From Lacibacter cauensis (GTDB lineage: Bacteria; Bacteroidota; Bacteroidia; Chitinophagales; Chitinophagaceae): a stretch of DNA of 64,000 nucleotides. The notes under the pieces are model-generated. The model searched no databases, had not been told where the DNA came from, and was given only the letters and a program-made list of their open reading frames with translations. The position numbers and the translations under genes were made by a program. How positions within the stretch are numbered: the first letter of the stretch is position 1; each line of letters opens with the position of its first letter. This document shows positions 48,789 through 62,085 of the stretch, piece by piece. The DNA is taken from contig NZ_VLLE01000004.1 of assembly GCF_007830055.1 (NCBI RefSeq), positions 525,248 through 589,247 of the forward strand. Reading direction: 5' to 3'.

Positions 48789-49796
48789 TTACAGCAAACC
48801 TTTGCCTTGCAGGTATTCTGCAATCTGTACAGCGTTTGTTGCTGCGCCTTTGCGGAGGTTATCGCTCACGATCCACATGTTGAGGGTGTTGGGTTGTGTT
48901 TCATCACGACGGAGACGACCAACAAACACTTCATCTTTTTCATGTGCATCCATTGGCATCGGATACAGTTGGTTTGCATTATCATCTACCACAATCACAC
49001 CAGGTGCGCTGCTCAACAATGCTTTCACTTCGTTTAAATCGAAGTCGTTTGCAAATTCTACATTTACGCTTTCGCTATGGCCACCCATTACAGGTATACG
49101 TACTGTTGTCGCCGTAACACGGATCGAATCATCGCCCATGATTTTGCAGGTTTCTTTTACCATTTTCATTTCCTCTTTGGTATAACCGTTATCGAGGAAC
49201 ACATCAATCTGCGGAATTACATTCAGATCAATAGGGTATTTATACGCCATCGGATATTCTTCGCTGCTGCCTGCAACTGCTTTTTCTCTTTCGCCCATCA
49301 ATTGATCAACTGCTTTTTTACCGGTACCGGTAACGCTTTGGTAAGTTGATACCACCACACGCTTGATCTGGTATTTTTTATGCAAAGGCTGCAATGCTAC
49401 CACCATCTGAATCGTAGAACAATTGGGGTTGGCAATAATTTTATCTTCTGCAGTTAACACATCGGCATTTACTTCAGGCACTACTAATTTTTTAGTAGGA
49501 TCCATACGCCATGCGCTGGAGTTATCAATCACCGTAATACCTGCTTCTGCAAATTTGGGTGCCCACTCTGTTGATGTACCACCACCTGCACTGAAGATTG
49601 CTACGTTTGGTTTTGCAGCAATTGCATCGGTCATGCTTACTACCTTAAACTTCTTCCCCTTAAATTCCACTTCTTTACCAACGGAACGTTCACTTGCAAC
49701 GGGGAGTAATTCGGTAACGGGGAAGTTCCGCTCAGCTAAAACCTGTAACATTTTGGTTCCTACAAGACCTGTGGCGCCAACTACTGCAACTTTCAT
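48789..49796 (-). CDS. asd: Aspartate-semialdehyde dehydrogenase
   Basis: A 335-residue enzyme of the lysine, threonine, methionine and diaminopimelate route. N-terminal KVAVVGATGLVGTKMLQVL binds NADP; the catalytic Cys is in NPNCSTIQMV, the active-site His in MGGHSESVNVEF, and STYQSVTGTGKKAV is conserved. Length fits. Two inverted REP elements and a terminator lie immediately upstream. Confidence 0.96.
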   Translation of the reverse strand: MKVAVVGATGLVGTKMLQVLAERNFPVTELLPVASERSVGKEVEFKGKKFKVVSMTDAIAAKPNVAIFSAGGGTSTEWAPKFAEAGITVIDNSSAWRMDPTKKLVVPEVNADVLTAEDKIIANPNCSTIQMVVALQPLHKKYQIKRVVVSTYQSVTGTGKKAVDQLMGEREKAVAGSSEEYPMAYKYPIDLNVIPQIDVFLDNGYTKEEMKMVKETCKIMGDDSIRVTATTVRIPVMGGHSESVNVEFANDFDLNEVKALLSSAPGVIVVDDNANQLYPMPMDAHEKDEVFVGRLRRDETQPNTLNMWIVSDNLRKGAATNAVQIAEYLQGKGLL

Positions 49797-49811
49797 TTTG
49801 TTTGTTTTCCT

Positions 49812-49880
49812 GTCCGACGCCCCCGTCTGACAGATTGATTTTATGGTTTTTAAATGATCCGTCAGACGGGGGCGTCAGAC
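49812..49880. repeat. Inverted pair of GTCTGACGCCCCCGTCTGAC-type repeats
   Basis: GTCCGACGCCCCCGTCTGAC (49812-49831) and its near-exact inverse GTCAGACGGGGGCGTCAGAC (49861-49880) differ at one position. Each unit is itself a near direct repeat of GTCTGAC. A third copy lies at 61989-62008. They sit in the 314-base region between asd and the lamin-tail gene. Confidence 0.8.
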
Positions 49881-49895
49881 GGGGCCTAAAAAAAT

Positions 49896-49921
49896 AAGGC
49901 CTTCCTGTTCGGGAAGGCCTT
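49896..49921 (-). terminator. Terminator downstream of the mini-ORF
   Basis: AAGGCCTTCC (49896-49905) pairs with GGAAGGCCTT (49912-49921); on the minus strand a run of T follows after one A. No larger gene is transcribed into it from the right on this strand. Confidence 0.85.
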
Positions 49922-49951
49922 TGCGTATGTTCAACTACATAACGTACAAGA

Positions 49952-50005
49952 TTACCTTCCCTTGCGGAACTGTTTCTTAGTGCGTTTTGTATGTTTCTTA
50001 TTCAT
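49952..50005 (-). CDS. Very short basic ORF (17 codons), possible mini-protein or sRNA
   Basis: The minus strand reads MNKKHTKRTKKQFRKGR and stop; a second ATG directly upstream would add one Met. Nine of 17 residues are Lys or Arg, like very small ribosomal proteins. It has a promoter match at 50016-50046 and a terminator at 49896-49921, giving a transcript of roughly 115 bases. I do not recognise the peptide; it could equally be a non-coding RNA. The two nearest genes are asd downstream and the divergent lamin-tail gene. Confidence 0.45.
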   Translation of the reverse strand: MNKKHTKRTKKQFRKGR

Positions 50006-50015
50006 CATTGTGCGC

Positions 50016-50046
50016 CAAAATTAAATGCAGCAAAGCGTTTCACCAA
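50016..50046 (-). promoter_or_regulatory. Near-consensus promoter for the mini-ORF
   Basis: On the minus strand TTG, a 20-base spacer and TAATTTTG (plus-strand coordinates 50016-50023 for the -7 box) fit the Bacteroidota pattern exactly. The -7 box ends 7 bases before the first ATG. Confidence 0.6.
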
Positions 50047-50110
50047 ATTGTTTTTATAAAAAAGTACAGATGACTTACGCAATCGTTTGATTAATGTTAT
50101 TTTTAAGGGT

Positions 50111-51829
50111 ATGGCTAACCGCTTTTTATCTACAACAATTGTTTGTTTGTTGATGATGCAAACAAACCTGCTGTTTGCACAAAACAGGTATGCTGTAGTC
50201 ATCAGCGAAATCATGAGCGACCCTTCTCCGCAAATTGGTTTACCCAACATAGAATGGATCGAAATACGCAATACAACCAACGCTGCAATCAATTTACAAA
50301 ACTGGCGTGTGGGCGATGGCAGTGGCGTAAGTGGTGTTTTACCGAACTTTTTGTTGCAGCCCGACAGCTGTGCTATTATCTGCAGCACAACTTCTGCCAT
50401 TACGATGCAACAGTATGGCCGCACATTTGGCGTAACAAGTTTTCCTTCATTAGATAATACAGGCGAAGCAGTTTTCATCCGCAATAGCAGCGGTGCTATT
50501 GTACATGCAGTAGAATACAATCTCAGCTGGTTTAACAATGCTGTGAAAAGCGATGGTGGCTGGACATTAGAAATGATCGATACCAACAATCCCTGCAGTG
50601 GTAGCTCCAACTGGCGTGCAAGTGTAGATGCAAGAGGCGGTACACCAGGCAGTAAAAATTCGGTTGATGCAGTTAACAGCGATCAGCAACCACCGGCATT
50701 GGTTCGTGCATTTGCAAACAGCAATACGGTTATTGTGAGTTTTGATGAACCACTCGATAGTTTATCGGCAGCAACGGCAGCCAACTATGCATTATCCAAT
50801 GGCGGAGGTACAGCAGTTGCAGCTGTTTGTATTGCTCCATTATTCAATACTGTACAACTAACCTTTGCTAATACATTGCAGCCGGGTATCGTTTATACTG
50901 TTACAGCTACCAATGTGCGTGACTGCAGCGGTAACAGCATCGGCGCATTTAACAACACAAAAACAGGATTGAGTTCGGCAGCTGCAGCCAACGACATTAT
51001 CATTAATGAAATCCTGTTTAATCCAAATGCAAACGGAACAGATTATGTAGAGTTGTATAACCGCAGTACGAAACTCATCAATTTAAAAACATTGTTGCTG
51101 GCCAACCGTAACAGCACTGGAGCAATCGCCAATATGAAAGTACTTACAACACAAGATCAGTTACTGTTCCCCGGCGATTATCTTGTACTGAGTGAAGATG
51201 ATGCAACCGTGAAACGACAGTTTACGGCAAAAAATCTTTCGGCGTTCATCAACCTTGCATCCATGCCTTCTTACAGCGATGATGAAGGAACAGTTGTGCT
51301 GACTGATAACGGAGGATTAGTAATTGATGAAGTAACATACAAAGACGATTGGCATTTCCCACTCATCAGTAACAGCGAAGGTGTTGCATTGGAACGCATT
51401 GACCCCAATGCGCCCTCACAAAACAAAGACAACTGGCACAGTGCCGCAAAAGATGTGGGTTATGGCACACCTTCGTATCAAAATTCGCAGTTCCGTTTAG
51501 ATATACAGGTGAAAGGAGAAGTAACAGTAAGTCCGGAAACCTTTTCGCCCGATAATGATGGAACAGATGATTTGTTAACCATCAACTATCGTTTTCCTGA
51601 AACAGGCTACGTGATGAACATTACTGTTTATGATGCAGGCGGTCGCCCGGTCAAAGCATTACAGCGGAATGCTGTTTGCAGTCAGCAGGGTACTTTCCGT
51701 TGGGATGGACTGAATGACAAACTTCAGCAACTGCCACTCGGCCCCTACGTAGTTTTTACTGAAGTTTTTAACCTGCAGGGAAAAGTAAAGCGGTTTAAAA
51801 ATGCAGTTGTGCTTGCCCGCAGAAAGTAA
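50111..51829 (+). CDS. Secreted lamin-tail-domain protein
   Basis: ATG at 50111 (MANRFLSTTIVCLLMM) begins a signal peptide ending LFAQ. The 572-residue product has a lamin-tail domain (about residues 22-175: VISEIMSDPSPQIG, IEWIEIRNTTNAAINLQNW), an Ig-like domain (about 190-300), a second lamin-tail domain (about 305-460: DIIINEILFNPNANGTDYVE) and a C-terminal FlgD-like Ig or gliding-motility-type domain from VSPETFSPDNDGTDD. It is probably an extracellular structural or adhesion protein, with the last domain possibly serving T9SS export. Confidence 0.85.
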   Translation: MANRFLSTTIVCLLMMQTNLLFAQNRYAVVISEIMSDPSPQIGLPNIEWIEIRNTTNAAINLQNWRVGDGSGVSGVLPNFLLQPDSCAIICSTTSAITMQQYGRTFGVTSFPSLDNTGEAVFIRNSSGAIVHAVEYNLSWFNNAVKSDGGWTLEMIDTNNPCSGSSNWRASVDARGGTPGSKNSVDAVNSDQQPPALVRAFANSNTVIVSFDEPLDSLSAATAANYALSNGGGTAVAAVCIAPLFNTVQLTFANTLQPGIVYTVTATNVRDCSGNSIGAFNNTKTGLSSAAAANDIIINEILFNPNANGTDYVELYNRSTKLINLKTLLLANRNSTGAIANMKVLTTQDQLLFPGDYLVLSEDDATVKRQFTAKNLSAFINLASMPSYSDDEGTVVLTDNGGLVIDEVTYKDDWHFPLISNSEGVALERIDPNAPSQNKDNWHSAAKDVGYGTPSYQNSQFRLDIQVKGEVTVSPETFSPDNDGTDDLLTINYRFPETGYVMNITVYDAGGRPVKALQRNAVCSQQGTFRWDGLNDKLQQLPLGPYVVFTEVFNLQGKVKRFKNAVVLARRK

Positions 51830-61988: not shown

Positions 61989-62008
61989 GTCTGACGCCCT
62001 CGTCTGAC
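61989..62008 (+). repeat. Third GTCTGACGCCC-type repeat
   Basis: GTCTGACGCCCTCGTCTGAC matches the copies at 49812-49831 and 49861-49880 (two or fewer changes each). It lies 29 bases after the SUMF1-like gene stop. Confidence 0.75.
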
Positions 62009-62085
62009 GGATTACAAAGAAGTAAAGGAATTAGGAATACTTCAGTGTCAATAAAAAACAAATAATAAATATCTAAACCATAAAC

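Follow-up and report, generated by a model that had tools for sequence, protein, structure and literature searches.

The locus lies on the minus strand of the window (the whole 64,000-nt stretch of Lacibacter cauensis DNA that was analysed) and consists of a short unit with a promoter, a small ORF and a terminator, followed by asd, the gene for aspartate-semialdehyde dehydrogenase. Its parts are the following.

50016..50046, minus strand: promoter, with TTG at 50046-50044, a spacer N20 and the box TAATTTTG at 50023-50016
A50011, minus strand: predicted transcription start, placed by the box position mapped in Flavobacterium psychrophilum (PMC9723704)
49952..50008, minus strand: leader peptide ORF MMNKKHTKRTKKQFRKGR, 18 codons with 6 Lys and 2 Thr, stop TAA at 49954-49952
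49974..49995, minus strand: region 1 (codons ..KHTKRTK..), 5′ strand of helix 1:1′
49955..49961, minus strand: region 2, GGGAAGG, 5′ strand of the putative antiterminator, within the last ORF codons
49933..49951, minus strand: region 1′ (TCTTGTACGTTATGTAGTT), 3′ strand of helix 1:1′
49911..49917, minus strand: region 3, CCTTCCC, partner of region 2 (antiterminator) or of region 4 (terminator)
49888..49921, minus strand: intrinsic terminator, stem AAGGCCTTCC/GGAAGGCCTT at 49921-49896, T tract at 49895-49888
48789..49796, minus strand: asd, the gene predicted to be regulated (NCBIfam TIGR01296 and NF011456)

The asd protein scores 444.5 bits against TIGR01296 (cut-off 324.2) and 462 bits against NF011456 (cut-off 223). 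On the same strand, asd is the first gene past the leader, and the neighbour on the opposite flank (50087-51829) is divergently oriented. From this arrangement the unit is recognised as the 5′ leader of asd and not as an orphan. An earlier, sequence-only reading had taken it for a stand-alone gene or small RNA, a view that we do not share. That reading had correctly located the promoter, TTG-N20-TAATTTTG, and the GC-rich hairpin with a T tract (a 10-bp stem with a loop of 6, followed by ATTTTTTT). The ATG ORF that it described is present as well, with its stop codon, and a second in-frame ATG had been overlooked; with start codons at 50008 and 50005 the ORF has 18 or 17 codons. The box is separated from the first ATG (50008) by 7 nt. 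In the 17-residue form, Lys and Arg account for 9 of 17 residues, that is, for more than half, as had been stated. The RNA fold of 49890-50011 has z = −4.8 relative to dinucleotide shuffles.

Between the terminator and asd there is a near-perfect palindrome, GTCTGACGCCCCCGTCTGACGG ... CTGTCAGACGGGGGCGTCGGACAG (49809-49883, minus strand), and the gap bearing it folds with about −52 kcal/mol as RNA. A second copy lies near 61989-62010 (plus strand), one arm has 16 more short matches in the genome, and the palindrome occupies an identical place in a sister genome (L011); it is a dispersed palindromic repeat. The miRNA matches returned by Rfam were below threshold and correspond to this repeat.

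The asd gene was found in 97 of 100 genomes of the same family. The upstream DNA of 30 genomes was read directly, 60 more were added and a scripted scan followed, the last seven genomes in the ranking being left out; the leader stands immediately upstream of asd in 67 of the 97 genomes. Conservation of the ORF and of the hairpin in relatives had been set beforehand as a test, and both are kept in these 67. The other 30 genomes mostly have a more divergent asd, and a few have too little upstream sequence. The distance from the terminator end to asd is 25-208 nt (median 65) in the 67 genomes, and a promoter-like motif was seen in this gap in one genome only, the other 66 having no promoter past the terminator. 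In 19 of the 67 no more than 45 nt separate the end of the terminator from the asd ATG, a gap too short for a promoter, so that at least in these genomes asd would have to be reached by reading through the terminator. A different recurrent element, approximately GTACAAGTGAGTGACACAACGAxGATG, is located between terminator and asd in L016, L018, L024, L026, L029 and L031, which belong to several genera.

In at least five other families of the class, asd is likewise preceded by leaders built on this plan, whose peptides are rich in Lys and often contain Met (MMNNTGMKRKMKKPSGYRKGN, MKMICSKKCMKKPVR). When 80 named genomes were scanned for promoter box, ORF and terminator, a leader was seen in about 19, mostly Chitinophagaceae, under criteria strict enough to miss some leaders (L214 has the leader of L023 yet fails the box test). 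For class-wide covariance-model matches, we counted a leader only where both a matching peptide and a biosynthetic gene came after the match; many matches with E above ~1e-5 resemble ordinary gene-end terminators and were not counted.

The promoter is conserved together with its position. Of the 67 homologous leaders, 51 have the pattern TTG-N18-21-TAnn[TC]T[TC]G at a distance of 3-14 nt upstream of the ATG, as compared with 0.18% of shuffled upstream segments; the spacer after TTG is 20 nt long in 37 leaders and 19 nt long in 13. Where the box is strict (59 genomes), it is 4-13 nt away from the ATG, mostly 7 or 8. In Flavobacterium psychrophilum the box is situated at −12 to −5 (PMC9723704), which for the asd leaders predicts a 5′UTR of about 3-4 nt (3 nt in the present sequence). 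A start codon predicted to lie ~3 nt from the 5′ end leaves no space for a Shine-Dalgarno sequence, and judging by this spacing it is likely that the asd leader peptide is effectively leaderless. Leaderless mRNAs amount to 5.5% in F. psychrophilum (PMC9723704) and are otherwise rare in the phylum; in Bacteroides thetaiotaomicron ~3.7% of 5′UTRs are shorter than 10 nt (PMC7366714).

The composition of the peptide connects it with the gene downstream. The product of Asd is the precursor of four amino acids, Lys, Thr, Ile and Met. The homologous leader peptides (n = 67) have 14-27 codons, with 3-6 Lys in every one. Lys makes up 25.5% of the in-frame residues, as against 14.0% in nucleotide-shuffled ORFs (maximum 16.1%), and Met 4.8% against 1.5%. 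Taken together, Lys, Thr, Ile and Met reach 50.7% in frame against 32.0% in the shuffles (maximum 36.0%), and this enrichment is absent from the +1 and +2 frames (22-24%). With such an in-frame amino-acid bias the ORF appears to be translated, and we agree with the earlier remark that an ORF so small is missed by ordinary gene calling. Directly before the KK pair, 49 of 62 peptides have Thr or Ile, encoded by six different codons. Thr is missing from five peptides, and sensing of Thr would thus not be universal. Lys is the only one of the four present in every peptide, start Met aside, which makes it the best candidate signal; on this codon content we regard Lys as the probable main signal, with Thr, Ile and Met as co-signals. 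The KK pair shows a synonymous constraint: its first codon is AAG in 59 of 62 cases, and for the second both AAA (44) and AAG (18) are used.

Elsewhere the peptide is free to change. The residues outside the Lys, Thr, Ile and Met positions vary, and the C-terminus is dictated by the antiterminator sequence. The Arg of KRTKK, mostly specified by CGC, which is able to pair with GCG in helix 1:1′, is replaced in many genomes by N, C, V, G, L or K. Searches of Pfam and NCBIfam with six homologous peptides of 20 aa produced zero matches (the window peptide is below searchable length). The likeness to very small ribosomal proteins suggested earlier is not borne out by this variation or by these searches.

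Three helices that exclude one another are conserved in the predicted leader RNA. In the terminator, 3:4, 96.5% of alignment cells are paired and six pairs are changed on both sides (65 sequences). The antiterminator, 2:3, joins GGGAAGG with CCTTCCC; its six-pair core is complete in 52 of the 67 leaders and has five of six pairs in the remaining 15. The first pair of 2:3 is G-C in 57 leaders and A-U in 6, and the next pair outward is G-C in 23, A-U in 6 and C-G in 3. In helix 1:1′ the KHTKR codons pair with the sequence past region 2. RNAalifold alone returns only the terminator as consensus, because the alternative helices exclude one another.

We compared the pairing of each leader with its own partners and with swapped partners in permutation tests, which remove relatedness only in part. 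For 2:3, own partners give −15.1 kcal/mol versus −13.2 for swapped ones, with −14.15 as the best of 20000 permutations. Bases of the terminator loop also pair with region 2 beyond what swaps provide (16 of 20000 reach the observed value); the terminator helix 3:4 does not explain these pairs, which thus support 2:3. Against the nearest-neighbour leader, own partners in 2:3 are better in the mean, yet they are better in 32 and worse in 24 of 65 individual cases. For 1:1′ the own duplex has a mean of −12.5 versus −9.7 kcal/mol for swapped partners, a value as low being reached in 0 of 20000 permutations, and it is better on average than nearest-neighbour partners too. On a fixed alignment 66% of 1:1′ is paired; a slide by two columns pairs equally often, with lower covariation.

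The spacing of codons and helices fits a translating ribosome as the switch. In 61 of the 67 leaders, the start of the last Lys codon ahead of region 2 is at least 11 nt away from that region (mode 15), and the stop codon is located between −6 and +15 nt from the start of region 2 in all 67. A ribosome covers about 12 nt ahead of its A site. With this footprint and spacing, region 2 would be exposed with a ribosome waiting for Lys and hidden with one at the stop codon. When folding was computed with the ribosome held at the last Lys codon, mean 2:3 pairing was 0.86; with the ribosome at the stop codon it was 0.00. Without a ribosome the mean was 0.68 (0.95 for the window sequence), and the basal setting of an untranslated leader would, in such folding, depend on co-transcriptional formation of 1:1′.

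Leader-peptide attenuation is a classical mechanism, and its parts are recognisable here: an in-frame ORF between promoter and gene, codons for products of the pathway, a terminator and a putative antiterminator that would exclude it. On these features we consider it very likely that this element controls asd by ribosome-mediated transcription attenuation. Transcription would start ~3 nt upstream of the leader ATG, and a ribosome would load near the extreme 5′ end of the predicted transcript. With charged tRNA-Lys (and the tRNAs for Thr, Ile and Met) in plentiful supply, the ribosome would get to the stop codon and cover region 2; region 3 would then pair with region 4, the terminator would form and asd would be off. 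If Lys (or Thr, Ile or Met) were short, the ribosome would stall on the KHTKRTKK codons and open 1:1′, region 2 would be left uncovered, 2:3 would pair and, the terminator being blocked, asd would be transcribed.

The same architecture is used in front of another biosynthetic gene. The covariance model of the asd leader also matched a hisG leader in the same genome (L103; C1:482789-482902, minus strand), made of peptide MISNTHTHHHHTCPTR, with HIHHHH, and a terminator; at E = 0.06, it was recognised by context and not by score. With 4 nt between the end of its box and the ATG, this leader has a predicted 5′UTR of 0 nt. A scan for box, ORF and terminator yielded His leaders upstream of 25 of the 30 hisG genes of the family that were examined, and His accounts for 32% of the residues of their peptides (for example, MNLFAHIHHHHTYPSR). 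These leaders resemble the asd leader in having the promoter box just before the ATG, a short peptide and a terminator past the stop codon; they differ from it in the HIHHHH peptide and in the arms, GGCTTAC/GTAAGCC. Among other Bacteroidia, a Thr/Ile leader (TIIITIIITT) occurs before thrA and a Trp leader (WWW) before trpB. The codon content appears to track the downstream gene, as attenuation demands, and Lys codons on asd versus His codons on hisG in one architecture make a natural specificity control.

This control bears on the possibility that the signal is arrest by the nascent peptide, or ribosome speed in general as in an antibiotic sensor, rather than uncharged tRNA for Lys or Thr. Basic runs can slow ribosomes, and a leader of this anatomy would respond to a stall of any kind; the peptide, though, is not conserved residue by residue, its amino acids match the pathway products and the hisG leaders bear His instead, and we consider such arrest very improbable. 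We give a similarly small chance to a terminated small regulatory RNA that acts in trans with an incidental ORF. The strong terminator would give an RNA of ~120 nt, and leader peptides of attenuators can work in trans (peTrpL of S. meliloti, PMC7298713), but the in-frame codon enrichment and synonymous variation point to translation as what matters, the 2:3 antiterminator is conserved and the linkage to asd is strict. The leader RNA may still have a secondary role in trans.

Slightly less probable again is that the ORF is a short gene in its own right, encoding a very small structural or ribosomal protein or another functional basic peptide. A promoter and terminator of its own, a conserved core KHTKRTKK and a composition more than half Lys and Arg would suit such a protein. 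The length (14-27 aa) and the C-terminus vary, however, following the antiterminator sequence; the Arg is exchanged for six other residues, the domain databases are empty, the ORF unit always lies 25-208 nt upstream of asd, with no space for a separate asd promoter in 19 genomes, and the hisG counterpart shares the anatomy and carries a His peptide. A ligand-binding riboswitch such as a lysine aptamer, in place of a translation sensor, is equally improbable: the leader is structured and ends in a terminator before an aspartate-pathway gene, and in other bacteria lysine riboswitches govern further genes of the pathway (PMC12925634), but no Rfam family reaches threshold, there is no large conserved unpaired core, and what is conserved is a reading frame of variable length with synonymous changes.

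Among the matches of Rfam covariance models over 49300-50600, up to E = 5, there was neither the lysine riboswitch nor the asd motif. A Phe_leader match of 26 bits, below the gathering threshold of 55, covers the terminator hairpin and the preceding stretch. Like the asd leader, the lysine riboswitch (L box) of lysC is a lysine-responsive RNA leader of an aspartate-pathway gene; it differs in binding lysine directly with no leader peptide, and it was not found at the asd locus.

As an attenuator, the asd leader can be compared with hisL and thrL of E. coli, which likewise have a short ORF with pathway codons, helices 1:1′, 2:3 and 3:4 and a terminator before a biosynthetic gene. It differs from them in combining Lys with Thr, Ile and Met codons, in the gene (asd) and in a predicted start codon too close to the 5′ end for a Shine-Dalgarno sequence. 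For E. coli asd itself, a 1982 report is said to have found a typical attenuation signal absent. Upstream of asd of Streptococcus mutans an attenuator-like sequence was described (Cardineau and Curtiss 1987, as cited in PMC2864571); that sequence and the Rfam asd motif share with our leader the possible control of transcription by an RNA leader before asd, and they differ in that S. mutans is of another phylum and the Rfam asd family has no match in this leader. A parallel within Bacteroidota is F. psychrophilum, with the TAnnTTTG promoter and structured 5′ leaders; the main text of that study describes strong clues for leader-peptide attenuation upstream of amino-acid operons, names hisG and pheA among the genes with conserved 5′ elements and does not mention asd (PMC9723704).

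Our literature search for lysine-codon leaders, asd attenuation and lysine attenuation in Bacteroidota, made in the main texts of mostly open papers, found no report. The asd leader would be a new case of a known mechanism, unusual both in its specificity and in its near-leaderless start; neither in Rfam nor in the accessible literature was a leader with Lys codons found on asd of Bacteroidota. A wider proposal, to which we give somewhat less than an even chance, is that Bacteroidota carry out attenuation from essentially leaderless leader peptides without Shine-Dalgarno sequences, and that the asd version is a multivalent sensor in which a single peptide reads Lys, Thr, Ile and Met. It might be the first attenuator to work through lysine codons, and it would answer how these bacteria, which have no lysine riboswitch at the asd locus, control the aspartate pathway.

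The gene asd is an essential gene of the cell wall and of amino-acid synthesis. If true, attenuation by the leader would account for a conserved unannotated ORF before asd across a bacterial family. It makes a prediction of how the Lys, Thr, Met and Ile pathway is controlled in a phylum where Shine-Dalgarno sequences are generally missing from the mRNAs. The Lys leader of asd and the His leader of hisG would form a natural series in which a ribosome starting at the 5′ end has to keep pace with RNA polymerase.

A Thr-rich leader ORF, MKQTVVHTISTPVAISATGTTTFTTTIR (L167), is located upstream of thrA (C1:640214-641059, minus strand) in the same genome. No obvious terminator was seen after this ORF, and this leader may act at translation. 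The reading frame of the aspartokinase gene downstream is long, and a fusion to homoserine dehydrogenase is likely; the other AA-kinase genes of this genome that were read have no leader. The same plan was also observed in other families of Bacteroidia, before thrA-like (L120, L134), trpB-like (L131) and hisG-like (L118) genes, named from the first protein residues only.
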